A stretch of 64,000 bases of DNA from Paludibacteraceae bacterium (lineage in GTDB: Bacteria > Bacteroidota > Bacteroidia > Bacteroidales > Paludibacteraceae): positions 124,001 to 188,000 of the forward strand of contig JAFYQJ010000011.1 in assembly GCA_017547145.1 (NCBI GenBank). The letters run 5' to 3'. Below the pieces are notes generated by a model. The model worked only from the letters and a program-made list of their open reading frames with translations, did no database searches and was not told the origin of the DNA. A program made the translations under genes and the position numbers. This document shows positions 17,967-26,647 of this stretch, piece after piece; position 1 is the stretch's first letter, and every line of letters starts with the position of its first letter.

Positions 17967-17971
17967 AAACT

Positions 17972-20900
17972 TTATGCGTATATAACCCCTGAACCCTGTG
18001 GAATAATCACATTGTGGATATTATCAATGTACTTTCCAAGAGGTATCATATAAGGTGTAAACAATACCAATCTCTCATCAAATGGTGCCTCATTAACCAC
18101 AATCTCCTTTGTGATGTCACCATTCTCACATACATACTGCACAATAGTATTCAAGAACTCCTCCTGCTCAGCATTAAGTTCATTATCTGACAAGAATTCA
18201 CTAAACTTATTCAATGCCTCCCTTCTATCCACACCTATTAATGAACGGATAAACGCTGCTACATTGCCTCCAAAGAGCATATTTTGAGTGTATTTAGCAT
18301 AGTCCTCCTTGCTTCCAAGTTCAGACCATAGAATACGCTCCAACTCATTAATATCCTCAGCAGACAACTGTTCAAGGTTGTATATTTTCTTCAATACAGG
18401 GAGGTTCCTATTGTTTGCAAGGAAGTCAATGATGCGCTGCTTATAGGATACCTTCATTGTGATTCCCTCTGCCTCTCCGTCATCAGTAACCACATCTTCA
18501 ATATCCACGATAAACCATCTGCCCTTATCACCCTTCAAGAACTGCATCAACTCACGCAAGTCATTACGCACCTTCTCCAACCACGGCATTGATACATTCT
18601 CCCAAGCAGCAACCGACAACACCTCTTTCAAGGTCGCCATCTTTGCCTGTACCTGTGGCAATGTTGCCTTCTTCTCAACTAAGAATTCAGCAACTTTCTG
18701 CACCTGTGCAATCTTCTTGTCTGCATTAACCTCACCACCTACATAACTCAACTCAATGAAGAGAATAATGGCATCAAACATCTTTGCAGTGGGTTCCATC
18801 GTGTTCTTGGGCAATAATGGAGCAATGTCATTTTTCAAGGTATGCACATCTACCTCTGACAATGACAACCAATTATCTTCCTTCTTGAAATGACTTACCT
18901 CCTCCCACTTAGAGCGCACAGATATATGACTATCAGACAACGTCATCACCTGTTCTTTCAAGATGCCTTTGAATTCATCGTGCAACTTACGGCAAAAGTC
19001 ATCCTCTTGATACTTTTGATGTTGTAGGTGAAACGCTACATCTGCTCTCAATCCGAAAATGCGCTCAGTGAGTGATATGCTTGATGGTGATGTTTTACCA
19101 TCCTCATACTTATCAAAATACTCAAAGTTCCTGCACCAATCAAAGATGTAGAAACACTCTTTGTCTTTGCCATTGCCAAAAATATCAGCAGATAGACGAG
19201 TGCCACGACCAATCATCTGCATAAATTTAATTTTACTTTTAACTATCTTAAAAAAGACAAGATTGAGAACATCTGGCACATCAATACCAGTATCGAGCAT
19301 ATCAACTGATACTGCAATTTGTGGATTATTATCTCTTACCTCAAACTTATCAATCAAGTCCTGAGAATAGGTCACATAGTTATCAATCAGCACACAGAAA
19401 TCAGAACCATATTCAGGGTAAAGTTTATGGAATCTCTCCACAATCAGCTCTGCGTGTCTATGGTTGTAGGCAAAAATGATGCTCTTGCCTATACGCTCCC
19501 CATACTGCACCTTCAGACCATTCTCCATCAGGTCTTGCAGCACGGCATCAATGGTCGCCTCGTTGAAAATATAGTTGAAAATCTCTTTATTCTCAATATC
19601 ACGAACAGGATAAGGATTGCGGTCGTCAAGCACCATTTTCATACCCTTAATGGCACTCTCATACTCCCAAACTGCCTCCATCTGTTTCTTCTCCTCATCA
19701 GTCAGATTAGCATATTTGATACCCTCTTTGAGAATCATTGAACCACGCTTAAATCCTCGATAGTTTACCAAGTAACCTTCTCCAACTGCATCTTCCAACT
19801 CATAAGCATAATTTGGCACTCCTTGTTCCATCTCAAAGATGTCGTATGTGCTTTTCTCTACCTCGTTTCTTGGTGTTGCAGTCAATCCCACAAGCATCGC
19901 ATCAAAATAGTTGAATATTGCTCCATATTTACCAAAGATTGAACGGTGTGCCTCATCAATGATTATCAGGTCAAATCTACCCACAGAGAAAGGTTTGTCC
20001 TCTGTGTCAATGTAGTTAATCATTGTCTGATATGTCGAGAATGTGATGCGGGCATTTAGGTCTTTCTCTCCATTCTCACTGAGTACACTTGTTGTGGTTG
20101 AAGGTAACAGCTTCACAAAATTCTTGTGTGCCTGACCTACAAGTGAGGTGCGGTCAGCAAGGAACAAAACATTCTTCACCCAACCATTTCTCATTAACAC
20201 ATCTACCAATGAAATGGATACTCTCGTTTTTCCTGTACCCGTTGCCATCACGAGCAGAGCTTTGCGATGCTTCTTGTTGAGGTGCTCACACACTGCCTTG
20301 ATTGCCATCTTTTGATATGCTCGGTCAGTAATATGGTCTTTCACAGAGAAGTCTGATATATCCTTTCTGCTTCTCTGCTGAATCATCAATTCCAAGTCAT
20401 TAGCAGAGTGGAATCCATATAATCTTCTTGGGGGATAACCCAATCCATCTATGATGTATGTTGCAAATCCGTTGGTGTAGTATATCACAGGGCGCACACC
20501 ATACTGCTTTCCCAAGCAATCAGCATATAACTCTGCCTGATGCTTACCCTTAATAGGTGATGCTGATGTACGCTTTGCCTCTACAACTGCAAGAGGTTTG
20601 CCATTGCCACCAAAGAGCACATAATCCACATAACCCATCTCGTGAGCATTTGGCATACCTTTTACCTCAACCTCTATGCACGCTTTGAGTGGTTCAATAG
20701 CACCTTCTGTTGGATTAATGTTCCATCCTGCCTCCTTCAGCATTAGGTCGATGTACATCTTGCGTGTCTCTGCCTCTGATATATCACAGGCAATCTCCAC
20801 AACAGGTTCAGTAGTATTTAGAACCTCTGTATCCACCTCTTTCAGTGCCTTATCGGTTGGTAATGCCTCAACCTTTGCAGGCACAATCACAGGTTTCTGA

Positions 20901-21328
20901 ATAGAGTCGGGGATTAGTGTCTTGTCAAAAGGTTTTACTTCATCAACTACTCGCAATTTTAGCAGGATTGAACCTACAACATTGTAAATATTGAGTAGTG
21001 AGAAAAACGCCTCCTTCTTGCTCACATTAATAGCATGAGCACCATTGTTACCCACCTTGCGGACATAGTGAACCGCCATCATCACTCTGTCATCACCAAT
21101 GAAAGTGCGGAAGGGTTCACCATCCACCAATTCAAAGAGTGATGTACGTTCCTTAATCTCAATACCCTTCATCTTGTATATCTCTCTGACGATATACTCC
21201 AATGCTCGACGACCATTGAAAGCAGATATTTCAGGGTCGCACACTTGATTCTCTTCTGCTGCCGAACAGAATCTATGTAGGGTGTCAAGTCCCAAATCCT
21301 TTATATAATCAAAGTTTCTCATACTCAT
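17972..21328 (-). CDS. hsdR: Type I restriction endonuclease, R subunit
   Basis: HsdR cuts DNA lacking the host methylation after ATP-driven translocation. Order of parts in 1118 residues: a DUF4145-like helical domain (1-130); the PD-(D/E)xK nuclease with D235 and E250-x-K252 (VVEAK); the SF2 helicase with Walker A GTGKT (about 364-368) and DEAH (458-461); further helicase motifs (ATPRNE, MIGRGTRL); and a C-terminal HsdR assembly region. All key residues are intact. Its base composition is richer in GC than the flanking genes, consistent with acquisition. It is the last gene of the restriction island operon. Confidence 0.95.
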   Translation of the reverse strand: MSMRNFDYIKDLGLDTLHRFCSAAEENQVCDPEISAFNGRRALEYIVREIYKMKGIEIKERTSLFELVDGEPFRTFIGDDRVMMAVHYVRKVGNNGAHAINVSKKEAFFSLLNIYNVVGSILLKLRVVDEVKPFDKTLIPDSIQKPVIVPAKVEALPTDKALKEVDTEVLNTTEPVVEIACDISEAETRKMYIDLMLKEAGWNINPTEGAIEPLKACIEVEVKGMPNAHEMGYVDYVLFGGNGKPLAVVEAKRTSASPIKGKHQAELYADCLGKQYGVRPVIYYTNGFATYIIDGLGYPPRRLYGFHSANDLELMIQQRSRKDISDFSVKDHITDRAYQKMAIKAVCEHLNKKHRKALLVMATGTGKTRVSISLVDVLMRNGWVKNVLFLADRTSLVGQAHKNFVKLLPSTTTSVLSENGEKDLNARITFSTYQTMINYIDTEDKPFSVGRFDLIIIDEAHRSIFGKYGAIFNYFDAMLVGLTATPRNEVEKSTYDIFEMEQGVPNYAYELEDAVGEGYLVNYRGFKRGSMILKEGIKYANLTDEEKKQMEAVWEYESAIKGMKMVLDDRNPYPVRDIENKEIFNYIFNEATIDAVLQDLMENGLKVQYGERIGKSIIFAYNHRHAELIVERFHKLYPEYGSDFCVLIDNYVTYSQDLIDKFEVRDNNPQIAVSVDMLDTGIDVPDVLNLVFFKIVKSKIKFMQMIGRGTRLSADIFGNGKDKECFYIFDWCRNFEYFDKYEDGKTSPSSISLTERIFGLRADVAFHLQHQKYQEDDFCRKLHDEFKGILKEQVMTLSDSHISVRSKWEEVSHFKKEDNWLSLSEVDVHTLKNDIAPLLPKNTMEPTAKMFDAIILFIELSYVGGEVNADKKIAQVQKVAEFLVEKKATLPQVQAKMATLKEVLSVAAWENVSMPWLEKVRNDLRELMQFLKGDKGRWFIVDIEDVVTDDGEAEGITMKVSYKQRIIDFLANNRNLPVLKKIYNLEQLSAEDINELERILWSELGSKEDYAKYTQNMLFGGNVAAFIRSLIGVDRREALNKFSEFLSDNELNAEQEEFLNTIVQYVCENGDITKEIVVNEAPFDERLVLFTPYMIPLGKYIDNIHNVIIPQGSGVIYA

Positions 21329-21346
21329 TTCAATTAGTAGAGAGTG

Positions 21347-21550
21347 TTAATAATCTGTATCATCTCGCTCTTCTCCCATCCATCCCATCCAACAGAGGAA
21401 TAGGTAAAATCCAAACACACCAAGCAATGCACTAATTACAATACCTTTCCAAGTAGGAACATTGGTTGCACTATTAATAATCAGTTTTACAATCCAACAA
21501 GCAAGAGCGATTAAACCGCCAAATATCAGTATATATAGTAGTGGTCCCAT
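21347..21550 (-). CDS. Small membrane protein in the type I restriction operon
   Basis: Not recognised. The 67 residues have two hydrophobic segments, roughly 4-24 and 36-56 (GIVISALLGVFGFYLFLCW), and an acidic tail (EERDDTDY). It lies between hsdS and hsdR with gaps of 12 and 18 bases, so it is very probably translated from the operon. Composition matches the island. Possible roles are a membrane anchor or an accessory defence protein; neither is shown. Confidence 0.6.
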   Translation of the reverse strand: MGPLLYILIFGGLIALACWIVKLIINSATNVPTWKGIVISALLGVFGFYLFLCWMGWMGEERDDTDY

Positions 21551-21562
21551 GAAATGTAGCGT

Positions 21563-22219
21563 TTAGTTAAAGTAGTAGTCCATTCGTGAGTTAAACAACT
21601 CTTCGGTTTCCTTGATTGATTGCTTAATCAACTCTTTTTGTTTCTCTATCGCTTCAATTTTTGATGCAAATTCTTGTTGAAGAGTGAGTGGTGGAACGCA
21701 AACTTTTAGTTCTCGTAATCCTTTTAAGATAACTCTCTTTATTGCAGTGCCCGTTAAAAGTTCTCGCTCTACAGTCTCGTATATTTCTTTTGTTGATAAA
21801 TACCCCACCAAATATTCTGAATTTAATATTTTTGTATCAGGGCGAGTGATGGCAATAGAGGATAGTAAAGCCTGTTCTTTTTCTTCTTTCAAAACAAAGA
21901 TGTATTTGAAATAACTACCATCTTTTGCTATCAATACATCTCCTTTATTTGGTTTGCATCCTGTTGATAATAATTTTTGATATTCAACTTCGCTAATCAT
22001 TTTGCAGTTCTCATATGAGAATCTATTTTGTTGCATATCTTTTACTGATAACATTGGTATTGTTCCATTTTCATCATCCTTTGGACTATAATGAGAACCA
22101 TCTGTTATATATTGGCATACCTCTCCTAATTTCTTTACCTCCCATCCCTTTTCATTCGTAATAGGGTCGCCAAACATAGTGTAGAAGATTGACTCGGCAA
22201 GGGCATCAAGTTCTTTCAA
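21563..22219 (-). CDS. hsdS: Type I specificity subunit, C-terminal half (split hsdS)
   Basis: This part carries the second target recognition domain and the second coiled spacer of an HsdS protein. It begins right after an in-frame TAG that separates it from the N-terminal half; the only initiator close to the break is a TTG. KELDALAESIFYTMFGDP is the usual centre of a complete HsdS, then KGWEVKKLGEVCQYITDG starts the recognition domain and LTLQQEFASKIEAIEKQK the spacer helix. The full protein would bind the second half of a bipartite DNA site. It is either a dead fragment or an independently translated half subunit. Confidence 0.8.
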   Translation of the reverse strand: MKELDALAESIFYTMFGDPITNEKGWEVKKLGEVCQYITDGSHYSPKDDENGTIPMLSVKDMQQNRFSYENCKMISEVEYQKLLSTGCKPNKGDVLIAKDGSYFKYIFVLKEEKEQALLSSIAITRPDTKILNSEYLVGYLSTKEIYETVERELLTGTAIKRVILKGLRELKVCVPPLTLQQEFASKIEAIEKQKELIKQSIKETEELFNSRMDYYFN

Positions 22220-22222
22220 CTG

Positions 22223-22711
22223 CTACTTTTTCTTCTCAATCACCCCACTCAAACAATCCAACTCCGCCACAATCTTTTCTTGCTCTGAAAGTGGAGGAAC
22301 GGGAATATATAATTCTTTTAATGCTTCCCTACCAATAGACTTAAAAGTAGAACCTGTTCCTTGTGCTATGAGTTTTTCTTTATTTGCAATTAAGGCGTGG
22401 TATATGTATGCACCAATAGTCGTATCAAGGTTTCTTATTGCTGCCAATCCTCGGCCTATACAACATCTGCAATCTGCTATGTTAATTGCGCCAATAGGAG
22501 CACGGACAGAAATAAGAATATCATTTTCTTCTGCTATTCTTATTGGAGCATTGCAAAAGACTCTTACTTTTGGATGAATCTTCCCAAAATCAGCATTACC
22601 TTGAAAAAAAGGAAGCCCATCAGAGTCATTATATGTATCAGAACTTGGAGATTGTCCCATAGTAATAGAACAAACCTCTCCCAATCTCTTTATTTTCCAC
22701 TCCTTTTTCAT
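22223..22711 (-). CDS. hsdS: Type I specificity subunit, N-terminal half (split hsdS)
   Basis: The start giving MKKEWKIKRLGEVCSITMGQ fits known HsdS proteins; a further upstream start would overlap the previous gene. The single target recognition domain runs to LYIPVPPLSEQEKIVAELDC, followed by the spacer helix ending VIEKKK and then TAG at 22223-22225. The reading frame continues past the TAG as QLKELDALAESIF, exactly what an intact HsdS has there, so one base change (for example CAG to TAG) explains the break. One-domain HsdS halves can pair in some systems, so function is not excluded. Confidence 0.85.
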   Translation of the reverse strand: MKKEWKIKRLGEVCSITMGQSPSSDTYNDSDGLPFFQGNADFGKIHPKVRVFCNAPIRIAEENDILISVRAPIGAINIADCRCCIGRGLAAIRNLDTTIGAYIYHALIANKEKLIAQGTGSTFKSIGREALKELYIPVPPLSEQEKIVAELDCLSGVIEKKK

Positions 22712-22715
22712 AGTC

Positions 22716-23420
22716 TTAATCAATCTTGCAGCGATTAGCAATTATACCTATAAAATCGTGCTTCAATATAATGTCTTTCTTCTCAAGAAAACCTTGAAGG
22801 TTATAGGTCATTGAAACTTTTCTCCCTTCGTGTGGAATATGCGATAGCAAGACCTCGACTCTTTGAGCATCGTCTCCAATTAGACAATCCAAGGATGTCT
22901 TCTCATCCAAAGTTATTGTTTGTCTTAGTTGTTTCTCTTGGGTTAGCATTGATTGAAACATCTTAAAAACGCCCACCATATCCATAAGCATTAGTTGATA
23001 ATTCTTAAGTATGACTTTCTCGTTGGGAAATTTCAACTCAAAATCCACTATATTCTGAGTGAATTCATCGAATAAGTCTGATGCATTATCAATATACTCC
23101 AGAAAGGGGTTGCTCTGCGAATCTCGTTCAGGTATATAAAATGTAAAAACCGTAAATATAAGATTCTCAATTTGTAAATTGATTTTATTGATTAGAATGT
23201 ATAACCTTTTATATACTTCATACTCCTGTGCTTTGGTTTGTCGTTCTTGAAGTTTTAGTTGTTGCTCCTGCAACTTATTCTGCCTTTTGCCCAAGACATA
23301 GGTAATCACCGCAGCAGCAACCGCAGCAAGCACCGTAGCGCCAACGCTCAACAAGTCGGGACTATTAAGACTCTCCACAGCATCAACGAGCTCTTGTAGT
23401 ATTTGGGTTTCAGTAGTCAT
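22716..23420 (-). CDS. Membrane-anchored coiled-coil protein in the restriction island
   Basis: Not recognised. It has one membrane segment at about residues 26-44 (VGATVLAAVAAAVITYVLG), then a strongly charged Gln/Glu/Lys coiled coil (QNKLQEQQLKLQERQTKAQ), then about 170 residues of mostly helical soluble domain. It sits between fic and hsdS, with its stop four bases before the hsdS start, and shares the island's composition. A palindrome like that before fic lies 90 bases upstream of its start. An anti-phage or accessory role is inferred only from position. Confidence 0.65.
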   Translation of the reverse strand: MTTETQILQELVDAVESLNSPDLLSVGATVLAAVAAAVITYVLGKRQNKLQEQQLKLQERQTKAQEYEVYKRLYILINKINLQIENLIFTVFTFYIPERDSQSNPFLEYIDNASDLFDEFTQNIVDFELKFPNEKVILKNYQLMLMDMVGVFKMFQSMLTQEKQLRQTITLDEKTSLDCLIGDDAQRVEVLLSHIPHEGRKVSMTYNLQGFLEKKDIILKHDFIGIIANRCKID

Positions 23421-23509
23421 CGGTTTCTATCTATTGTTGGGTAGTATGGTTGTTTCATACACCAAAGGATGATATGTGAAAATTGCGGGGTGTCAAAATG
23501 AAAAAAATA

Positions 23510-23532
23510 TGAAGATTTTTCAAAAACTTTCA
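23510..23532. promoter_or_regulatory. Palindromic operator-like site between fic and the membrane-protein gene
   Basis: The 23-base quasi-palindrome has half sites TGAAGA and CTTTCA around TTTTTCAAAAA. It lies ten bases beyond the fic stop and 90 bases before the next gene's start. It is nearly the reverse complement of the 23-base site at 24891-24913. Confidence 0.5.
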
Positions 23533-23542
23533 CATTTTTTCA

Positions 23543-24862
23543 TTATTGAAACTTGTCTTGAATTAACAATTCTTCAAATTTATTACCCCTGACAAATGTG
23601 CTTTTCTTCTTATTAACTCGCACACGCATCAAATAGCCTTTCTCCAAAAGTCCCTCAATATCCAATCGAGCCGTCGGATTACTGATGCCAAAGCGAGTTT
23701 GCAACTCTTTGACAGTGAGCACCACTTGTGGATTCTCTTTGATAAGAGCCAAAATATCCGCCTGGCGCTCATTGATACCCTCTTCGAAAAGGAAGTTAGA
23801 CACAAAGTGTCGCTGAGATGTTTTATGTCTAATATAGCGTTGCAACTCTCCAAAGGCAAGTTCCAAAACTCGAATGTTGTAGGTGATAAAGTAGCCTATA
23901 TCGTTGCCATCTTGCTCGGAAAACAAATAGGCCTTCTCATAACTCGGTTTGGACTTGTAGATAATTCGGGAAATTGACATATACTCCATCAACCAATAAC
24001 CATTTTTGAGCATATACCAATAGAATAACGCACGAGCAGTTCGCCCATTTCCATCGGTAAATGGGTGAACATAAGCAATCATAAAGTGAATAATGATGGC
24101 TTTAATGATAGGGTGTATAAAATCATCCTTGGTATCCGAATTGAAGAAAGTACACAAATCTTCTGCAAAGGACGGTATCTCCATAAATGATGGCGGCGTG
24201 TGCACCACCTCGTTTGTGAGCCCATTGGCAACCACTACATCGTCATTTGTACGGAAGCGTCCCTCATCCTCGCTGTTGTCAAGCGTCTTATTTGTCATAA
24301 GAGAGTGCACCTTCAAAAGCAGTTCGGGAGTTAAAGGTTCTGACTTGTTTTCTACAATAAAACGAATCGTTTGATAGTTGTTGAAAATCATCTGCTCCGA
24401 GCGACTTCGTGGAGAGTTGTTCTTTCGCAACATATCTTTGGCTATCTTGCGAGTCGTGGCAGCCCCCTCCATTTGGCTGGATGAGATTGCCTCCTCCATC
24501 AACGAAGAGATTAAATAGCGCTCTTTATTCGTATCTGGAATAATAGAACTATTGCCCCAAGAGCCACCAAAATTCATGTCAAAATAGTGGCACATACTCT
24601 GCATTTTGTTTGTGATGGCAAATGAAATATTGTATTTCGCCCAAACAACCTTGCGCTTCAACATCCTGTCAAACTTGACACAAGCCCACAAATCCTGAGG
24701 AGAGATGTCTAGTTTAGAATTTTTTTTGTACTTAACATCACTCCAATACAAATAAGAATCGTTTATCTCCTCCACAAAAGTCTTTAACTCTGGATGTTGA
24801 ACATACAAGCCTATGGCTTTATTGAAGAGTTTTCCGTTGATTGCTGGTGCTTTCTCTATCAT
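23543..24862 (-). CDS. Fic family protein with N-terminal inhibitory helix and winged-helix domain
   Basis: This is a probable AMP-transferase. The 439 residues contain a Fic N-terminal domain, the self-inhibition motif S-x-x-x-E-G (S128, E132, G133 in SSSQMEG), the catalytic loop HPFTDGNGR at 266-274 with all key residues, and a C-terminal winged helix (about 365-430, VKELQTRFGISNPTARLDI) that could bind DNA. Because the inhibitory helix precedes the Fic motif it is class II. It lies inside a type I restriction operon between hsdM and hsdS. The target is unknown; modification of the restriction proteins or self-regulation are both possible. A palindrome sits 28 bases before the start. Confidence 0.9.
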   Translation of the reverse strand: MIEKAPAINGKLFNKAIGLYVQHPELKTFVEEINDSYLYWSDVKYKKNSKLDISPQDLWACVKFDRMLKRKVVWAKYNISFAITNKMQSMCHYFDMNFGGSWGNSSIIPDTNKERYLISSLMEEAISSSQMEGAATTRKIAKDMLRKNNSPRSRSEQMIFNNYQTIRFIVENKSEPLTPELLLKVHSLMTNKTLDNSEDEGRFRTNDDVVVANGLTNEVVHTPPSFMEIPSFAEDLCTFFNSDTKDDFIHPIIKAIIIHFMIAYVHPFTDGNGRTARALFYWYMLKNGYWLMEYMSISRIIYKSKPSYEKAYLFSEQDGNDIGYFITYNIRVLELAFGELQRYIRHKTSQRHFVSNFLFEEGINERQADILALIKENPQVVLTVKELQTRFGISNPTARLDIEGLLEKGYLMRVRVNKKKSTFVRGNKFEELLIQDKFQ

Positions 24863-24890
24863 ATCTCATCATCTTTATCATACAAAAATA

Positions 24891-24913
24891 TGAAAGTTTT
24901 TCAAAAATCTTCA
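24891..24913. promoter_or_regulatory. Palindromic operator-like site before fic
   Basis: The 23-base quasi-palindrome TGAA-AG-TTTTT-C-AAAAA-TC-TTCA lies in the 75-base gap between hsdM and fic, 28 bases before the fic ATG. It matches the site at 23510-23532. A weaker version (AAGTTTTTTTCAAAAAT) occurs before hsdM at about 26445-26461. The winged helix of Fic is the obvious candidate binder. Confidence 0.5.
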
Positions 24914-24937
24914 CATTTTTACATATTTCTTTCGATT

Positions 24938-26431
24938 TTAATGCAGCATTTTATTCAATTCCCCTATCGCCAATCCAATCTCCTTTTCAAGGTTGGTAAT
25001 ACGCTCCAATATCACCTCTGGTGCATCATAGGTTACCACCTCACGATCAACCTCCTTGTACTTGTTGATTGAGAGGTCATAATCCTTCTCACGAATCTCC
25101 TCCACAGGCACCAAGAATGACTGCTCCTTACGGGTGCGCTGCTCCTCTGCTGCAAGGTTGTGGAAACGAGCAATAACATCAGGAATATCATTCTCTGTAA
25201 CCTCATTGCGCTTTTGGTCGAGAGAGAATCCATCTGCCTTCATATCGTAGAACCACACCTTATCAGTGCCTCCTGCATTGGTCTTGGTAAAAATCAAAAT
25301 AGCGGTGCTAACTCCTGAATATGGTTGGAACACACCACTTGGCATAGAGATAACTGCCTCCAAACGGTGGTTATCAATCAACTCCTTACGGATAGACTTG
25401 TGTCCTGTGCTGTTACCGAACAACACTCCATCAGGAACGATGCTTGCACAACGACCACCTATCTGCAACATACGCACAAACAAGGCAAGGAACAACAACT
25501 CTGTCTTCTTGGTCTTGGTGATAGCAAGAAGAGACTTGCTCACCGCCTCATTATCCAAACTGCCCGTAAATGGTGGATTGGCAAGGCAGAGAGAGTATTT
25601 GTTCTCATCTGTGTTGTCAGTTGAAAGACTATCACGGTAGGCAATATCAGGGTTATCCACACCGTGAAGCATAAGGTTCATAGCACCAATACGGAGCATA
25701 GTGGCATCTGTGTCAAAACCGTGCAACATACCACTCTTATAGTGGTCTGAATTCTCCTTTTTGAGCAACTCACTCTTGTAGTGCTGTTGGATATACTTTG
25801 CAGACTCCACAATAAATCCTGCTGAACCCATAGCAGGGTCACAGATGGTATCCTTCAAGGTAGGTTGCATAAGGTTCACCATCATCTGGATAATGTGGCG
25901 TGGAGTACGGAACTGACCATTATTACCCGATGCTGCCATCTTACCCAAGACATACTCATAGACATCACCCATAGTGTCACGGTTGTTCATATCAAGGGCA
26001 TTGATACCCTCCACAATCTTTGTCAAGGTGCGTGGAGACTGAATAAGGAAGGTGGCATTTGCCATAAAGCGACTATATGCTGACTCCTTACCCTCACCAA
26101 GAGTCTTAATGAAGACAAAGACATCTTTGCTGATGGTGCGGTACATTGCTTCTGCCTCCAAGTTACGGAATACACTCCAACGAAGTTGCTCATAAGGAAC
26201 ATCTTTGTCAGTCTCAGGGTTGTGCCACAAACCCTCTTTGAAGGTAGGGTCTTTCAAAGTGGTGCCCCAAGCGTTAGCATTTGCCTCCTTAGTGCGCTGA
26301 GCATCATCAAGCATCTTCATAAAGAAGAGATATGTCATCTGCTCCAAGATGGTGATGGAGTTGGTGATACCTCCTGTCCAAAAGGTATCCCAAATAGTAT
26401 CTATACGGTTTTTAATCTCACCTGTAATCAT
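24938..26431 (-). CDS. hsdM: Type I N6-adenine DNA methyltransferase, M subunit
   Basis: HsdM methylates adenine in the bipartite site chosen by HsdS. The 497-residue protein shows an N-terminal helical HsdM domain, the S-adenosylmethionine motif DPAMGSAGF (198-206) and the catalytic NPPF (285-288). The C-terminal EKDYDLSINKY is the usual family tail. It is the first gene of the island operon, with a Bacteroidota-type -7 element just before the start. GC content is clearly above that of the neighbouring dprA. Confidence 0.96.
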   Translation of the reverse strand: MITGEIKNRIDTIWDTFWTGGITNSITILEQMTYLFFMKMLDDAQRTKEANANAWGTTLKDPTFKEGLWHNPETDKDVPYEQLRWSVFRNLEAEAMYRTISKDVFVFIKTLGEGKESAYSRFMANATFLIQSPRTLTKIVEGINALDMNNRDTMGDVYEYVLGKMAASGNNGQFRTPRHIIQMMVNLMQPTLKDTICDPAMGSAGFIVESAKYIQQHYKSELLKKENSDHYKSGMLHGFDTDATMLRIGAMNLMLHGVDNPDIAYRDSLSTDNTDENKYSLCLANPPFTGSLDNEAVSKSLLAITKTKKTELLFLALFVRMLQIGGRCASIVPDGVLFGNSTGHKSIRKELIDNHRLEAVISMPSGVFQPYSGVSTAILIFTKTNAGGTDKVWFYDMKADGFSLDQKRNEVTENDIPDVIARFHNLAAEEQRTRKEQSFLVPVEEIREKDYDLSINKYKEVDREVVTYDAPEVILERITNLEKEIGLAIGELNKMLH

Positions 26432-26436
26432 ATTGT

Positions 26437-26444
26437 CAAATATA
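26437..26444 (-). promoter_or_regulatory. Bacteroidota-type -7 element before hsdM
   Basis: On the minus strand the bases read TATATTTG, matching TAnnTTTG, ending only five bases before the hsdM ATG. If used, the mRNA would be leaderless or nearly so. No convincing -33 element is seen, so the assignment is tentative. Confidence 0.4.
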
Positions 26445-26647
26445 AGTTTTTTTCAAAAATAAAATTCTTTCAAAAAATTAAAAGGATTTTTAAAAAGTAG
26501 TGCGTCTAAAAGAACCCAAGTTTTCAACGTGAAAATCAGCACTAGGCAACTAAACAAATACACCATATTTGTAATATAACAAAATTATAAAAAGCTTTGT
26601 AACGATATTTCAATATTAGAAATTTCATCGTTGTTTTTTTATCTATT

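Follow-up and report, generated by a model that had tools for sequence, protein, structure and literature searches.

A type I operon with an interrupted hsdS gene

The DNA analysed here is a stretch of 64,000 nucleotides (the window; positions 124,001 to 188,000 of contig JAFYQJ010000011.1, assembly GCA_017547145.1) from an uncultured, gut-type Paludibacteraceae bacterium. It carries an operon with the gene order hsdM, a Fic-HTH gene, the gene of a 234-aa orphan protein, hsdS, a 67-aa ORF and hsdR. The presence of hsdM, hsdR and hsdS at one locus, as identified by Pfam with Methylase_S found twice, corresponds to a type I restriction-modification gene set. The features are listed below, with HsdS residues numbered along the read-through frame and the two recognition domains designated TRD1 and TRD2.

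24938 to 26431, minus strand: hsdM, 497 aa, uninterrupted (Pfam HsdM_N and N6_Mtase)
23543 to 24862, minus strand: Fic-HTH protein encoded within the operon (SoFic model of PADLOC, E 1.6e-44)
22716 to 23420, minus strand: 234-aa helical orphan inside the operon, without a Pfam or PADLOC family
22223 to 22711, minus strand: N-half of hsdS, 162 aa, ATG at 22711, predicted TRD1 and 22 of the 40 central-helix residues (PF01420 and structural model)
22223 to 22225, minus strand: in-frame TAG, residue 163, in the middle of the first predicted dimerisation helix
22217 to 22219, minus strand: TTG, residue 165, 3 nt past the TAG, the nearest possible re-initiation codon (putative start)
22175 to 22177, minus strand: ATG, residue 179 (MFGDP), the first in-frame ATG past the stop (putative start)
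21563 to 22222, minus strand: C-half of hsdS, 219 open codons after the TAG, predicted TRD2 and an entire distal helix (342-381 in the model; PF01420 and structural model)
21347 to 21550, minus strand: 67-aa hydrophobic ORF between hsdS and hsdR
17972 to 21328, minus strand: hsdR, 1118 aa, uninterrupted (Pfam ResIII, EcoEI_R_C and HSDR_N)

A single hsdS frame, with its ATG at 22711, its terminal stop at 21563 and no other interruption, is cut by the TAG at 22225-22223 into 162 and 219 codons. The minus-strand letters at the junction are ...ATT GAG AAG AAA AAG TAG CAG TTG AAA GAA..., in which the TAG sits between AAG (Lys162) and CAG. Pfam Methylase_S (PF01420) matches both the N-half (E 1.3e-24) and the C-half (E 7.8e-16). 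As proposed in the initial annotation, no base is inserted or deleted here, and relatives align on both sides of the junction with exactly one codon between. The two frames are adjacent pieces of one two-domain protein, the homologues of which are single ORFs, rather than a chance ORF pattern. No further lesion was found in either hsdS half or in the other operon genes.

The claim that hsdM and hsdR are intact was also borne out, as both genes are uninterrupted and strongly constrained (dN/dS about 0.06). The dN/dS was 0.063-0.075 for hsdM (versus the related loci L037, L038 and L039), 0.064 for hsdR (versus L038) and, over N-half residues 1-94, 0.093 (versus L037). These values average across the periods preceding and following the stop and are uninformative on constraint since then. 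For the C-half, the silent sites were saturated against L041 and L062, giving no ratio.

To place the operon in its genomic context, the site was compared with that in a sister species (G001). There, dprA and a 354-aa gene lie 397 bp apart, the operon is absent, and the flanking genes follow the same order (ftsK, lolA, trxB, vanZ-like, dprA, 354-aa gene, ctpA-like protease, deaminase); these names are our own labels, only order and similarity having been computed. A close HsdM was not found in three other genomes of the genus, in which the best match was 33% identical in G001 and no match was obtained in G002 or in G003 (66% complete). Because the operon is absent from the G001 site and a close HsdM is missing from the other genomes of the genus, the type I operon (window 17967-26647) is an accessory insert relative to G001. 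Promoter and terminator patterns across the operon did not rise above those in shuffled sequences.

Two of the additional genes have counterparts elsewhere. Fic relatives occur in or beside the operon in nine of 80 loci selected by their HsdM (L040, L070, L071, L079, L080, L097, L099, L106 and L112), and a literature search on Fic genes between hsdM and hsdS returned nothing to the point. The orphan belongs to a family of all-helical proteins of about 220-235 aa, in which a Gln-rich coil follows a hydrophobic N-terminal segment. Their genes lie between hsdM and hsdS in the window and in four of the same 80 loci (L038:13125-13787, L039:2401-3078, where the contig ends before hsdS is complete, L071:5349-6053 and L083:12911-13573). 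These five sequences were aligned, and an AlphaFold2 model reached a pLDDT of 81.

Distribution and age of the stop codon

The relatives used for comparison were anchored on HsdM (80 loci, HsdM 71-95% identical), so that their selection was independent of the state of hsdS. This comparison showed a sense codon at the TAG position in all 73 alignable HsdS genes (from 72 of the 80 loci), mostly encoding Ala, Glu or Gln; not all 73 are independent, since L115 and L116 are equal in the results and L100 is 100% identical to L101 apart from a frameshift. The loci without an alignable junction were L037, L039, L056, L067, L080, L088, L098 and L102, several of them cut off by a contig end. Among the relatives compared, the TAG is thus private to this one genome. 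A 39-residue junction probe against 393 genomes of the order matched seven other genomes, none of them with the stop, although so short a probe is a weak one. The C-half found no relatives and the junction pattern no matches in viral contigs, and plasmids gave only one 77-base match.

The locus with the closest HsdM (L037, 95%) reaches its contig end before the junction, and the nearest operon with a readable junction is that of L038 (HsdM 93% and HsdR 90% identical). It encodes Gln at the TAG position with a one-base difference, in agreement with the single point change that had been postulated. Around the junction, 154 of 160 bases (96%) are identical between L038 and the window, and residues 140-191, without 163, show three silent differences in 30.0 silent sites (pS 0.10), versus a pS of 0.52 for hsdM and 0.545 for hsdR. 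These values suggest an exchange of the central hsdS block at a later date than the divergence of the remaining operon, an estimate based on only three differences, and a stop younger than the last such exchange. Given a pS of 0.10 in this block against 0.52-0.55 in hsdM and hsdR, the stop would be recent relative to the operon.

A question raised by so isolated a codon is whether it is fixed at all. It may instead belong to a minority strain, or reflect an erroneous consensus call in an assembly of metagenome type, a reading that we consider quite improbable. The genome is a 90%-complete draft of 1.86 Mb in 17 contigs, and the L100 HsdS, identical to that of L101 apart from its frameshift, illustrates how a single hsdS lesion can separate neighbouring records. 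Against this, the contig is 212 kb long, contamination is 0.18%, and a consensus with good coverage is unlikely to contain lone base substitutions. Moreover, the window has five same-frame breaks between open stretches of at least 120 codons, of which the four besides this one are TAAs ending listed ORFs.

The position of the stop was also set against broken hsdS genes elsewhere, which are not rare. The 196 fetched loci contained 177 intact two-TRD ORFs in 173 loci and, besides the window, six broken hsdS genes. Three of these were found among the 80 HsdM-anchored loci, with the break in TRD2 (L070) or in TRD1 (L100 and L103). The other three were HsdS-anchored and came from a group (L170-L175) fetched because the frames looked short or contained a stop: a frameshift breaks L171:3875-4944 (plus strand) where the central helix begins, a frameshift and a TAG break L175:4150-5395 (minus strand) at the same place, and L170 holds only an hsdS remnant. 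Left out of this count were loci at contig ends (L029, L037, L039, L056, L173 and L174, as well as L033 and L172, which are one place near a contig end), L260, in which an intact gene is accompanied by additional C-half-like copies, ORFs of more than 560 aa with HsdS-like parts (L192, L199, L237, L252 and L258) and short stop-to-stop pieces, mostly overlapping the hsdM end. Recurrent selection for an inter-domain break was rejected, as central breaks made up two of six overall and none of the three in the set chosen independently of hsdS state, with no evidence of clustering. If nonsense mutations were random, 23 of the 211 one-step routes (11%) would fall within the inter-domain stretch (residues 139-183), so the position of the stop is by itself unremarkable.

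Structural position of the stop and decoding of the TAG

AlphaFold2 modelling of the read-through HsdS with 65 relatives gave a mean pLDDT of 92.3 and two 40-residue helices (141-180 and 342-381). Foldseek groups this model with the HsdS structures 7vs4/7vru, 1yf2, 1ydx, 2y7c, 5ybb and 7bst (TMq 0.78 versus 7vs4_C and 0.75 versus 1yf2_A); its fold of two TRDs and two antiparallel helices matches theirs, with the single chain interrupted by the TAG. The initial annotation had placed the codon exactly between the first helix, ending in VIEKKK, and the second domain. The break does lie between the TRDs, but residue 163 falls in the middle of the modelled spacer helix 141-180 and cuts it nearly in half, leaving the N-half with 22 of the 40 zipper residues and removing 18.

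This position is expected to affect the two halves differently. The helices of S subunits have been described as an antiparallel zipper (PMC3874165), in which residue i faces the far end of the partner, so the overlap of two N-halves would be limited to about four residues. The N-half would therefore have almost no surface for self-pairing, although it could lie against the end of the distal helix of the C-half. With the stop at residue 163 of 141-180, it lacks the combination of TRD1 and a whole central helix that characterises the half subunits of NgoAV and EcoDXXI delta-C. By contrast, TRD2 plus a helix in an open frame, as in EcoDXXI delta-N, is predicted for the C-half (219 open codons, helix 342-381). 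Because it retains a whole helix, the C-half is probably the better half-HsdS candidate of the two, provided that it is translated.

It is very improbable that read-through of the TAG yields enough full-length HsdS to be functional. A stop followed by C, as in the CAG past this TAG, is a weak termination context, which would favour such decoding. However, none of the 43 tRNAs found in the genome by a tRNA family search (anticodons from ARAGORN on the 30 loci and 13 further stretches covering them) has the anticodon CUA, although the missing tenth of the genome could hide one. In addition, two RF-1-family proteins are encoded, and TAG terminates six of the 50 listed ORFs in the window, the hsdS N-half among them (five of the 49 others), as an ordinary terminator. 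On these grounds an amber suppressor or a code change was rejected, and suppressor-mediated read-through is unlikely.

Two other ways of rejoining or switching the gene were rejected. Both alternative frames around the stop run into stops within about 10 codons (by eye), so that frameshifting could not bring the halves back together. Against phase variation through slippage or through shuffling of hsdS stand the lack of any tract beyond A5 at the site and of a second hsdS in the genome (PF01420 search of the 90%-complete assembly; a copy could still hide in the missing tenth).

Consequences for HsdS and relation to known split systems

Taken with some reserve, the probable explanation is a recently arisen nonsense hsdS allele in an accessory type I operon, whose system is inactivated or strongly weakened. 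Translation would halt in the middle of the helix joining the two recognition domains; the N-half, with TRD1 but 22 of 40 zipper residues, would dimerise poorly; and the C-half would be made only through re-initiation at the TTG or ATG, which is presumably weak. As no other hsdS was found, HsdM and HsdR would be left without an efficient specificity subunit, and modification and restriction would be lost or strongly reduced together. The cell would come to no harm from such a joint loss, since no self-target lacking methylation would be cleaved. Counting against loss are the absence of any other lesion in the operon and the open TRD2 with a full distal helix in the C-half. If inactive, the locus would be an ordinary snapshot of a laterally gained restriction system switched off via loss of its specificity subunit.

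Alternatively, HsdS may consist of two chains, with ribosomes that stop at the TAG re-initiating at the TTG (165) or the ATG (179) and both halves functioning, a reading that we find doubtful but credible. The short helix of the N-half might dock on the far end of the C-half distal helix, giving a nicked HsdS with the original specificity; or the C-half might pair with itself, making the enzyme recognise a palindromic form of the second half-site. A TTG start is indeed available, as had been pointed out, two codons past the stop, and its use would leave out residues 163-164 alone; the ATG at 179 would yield a complete TRD2-plus-helix module. The constraint on hsdM and hsdR likewise accords with a working system. 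On the other side, TTG starts are uncommon in this phylum, the N-half is without 18 of its 40 helix residues and would overlap little in an antiparallel N-N pair, and the D1 and D2 helices have 12 of 43 residues in common. Furthermore, the split occurs in one genome only, and nothing shows selection for it. A naturally nicked HsdS, reassembled from the N-half and a re-initiated C-half across the break in the zipper helix and able to exchange its recognition halves as individual chains, or alternatively a palindrome-reading dimer of the C-half, is unlikely. If the halves do work, this Bacteroidales-type gut bacterium would harbour a type I system with a specificity subunit broken inside the zipper helix, and would offer a direct test of the helix length that two half-HsdS proteins need.

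A split hsdS is a kind of gene already known, extended by this case to a stop within the helix that differs by a single base; our literature search found no publications on this locus. EcoR124I and EcoDXXI are reported to form half-HsdS homodimers, those of the EcoDXXI C-half being active, and the N- and C-halves of EcoDXXI, made separately and co-expressed, restored wild-type activity (PMC3874165), so the system can survive an inter-domain break. The EcoDXXI delta-C and delta-N and EcoR124I delta-50 truncations resemble our halves in having one TRD and one helix each, and they can work alone or together; however, they are reported for type IC and keep a dimerisation helix (PMC3874165), whereas any activity of the present halves is putative. 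NgoAV, described as a natural half-HsdS case (PMC3874165), has in Neisseria gonorrhoeae FA1090 an hsdS (HsdS1/HsdS2) broken between the recognition domains, with hsdM and hsdR kept and the N-half made alone (PMC9577141). Unlike our single-base stop without a repeat tract, that split lies at a slippage-prone polyG tract that switches, and its active HsdS1 retains 208 of 410 residues, whereas our N-half has 162 aa and lacks 18 of 40 helix residues (PMC9577141).

The reports on Helicobacter pylori bear on both outcomes. Single-TRD S proteins are described there, which add to the precedents for two chains, but a TRD1-only variant was inactive, and its authors suggest that the helix is unable to homodimerise (PMC3936762). 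Engineered half-S proteins are a further such precedent. In HP0848-HP0849, beside HP0850, a lesion likewise splits the S gene next to its own hsdM and the whole S is judged not to be translated; that lesion is a frameshift and ours a point stop, and the MTase there was proposed to be served by a different S subunit from elsewhere (PMC3936762), whereas none was found here. A system with a short and a long hsdS (PMC10030836) and truncated hsdS copies in mycoplasma (PMC11062135) have also been described.

Prevotella intermedia is of the same phylum as the source organism. In strain ATCC 25611F its hsdS is fragmented into small ORFs (hsdS1-5), a further possible precedent for short chains, but the fragments there arise from inversion and frameshifts in a multi-hsdS locus, whereas here there is one hsdS (PMC5608340). 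Among solved structures, a literature search returned nothing relevant on the role of 'Esub1' (PDB 8vsr and 8vsq), a single-TRD-sized protein, crystallised with Prx, that matches half of HsdS by both sequence and fold.
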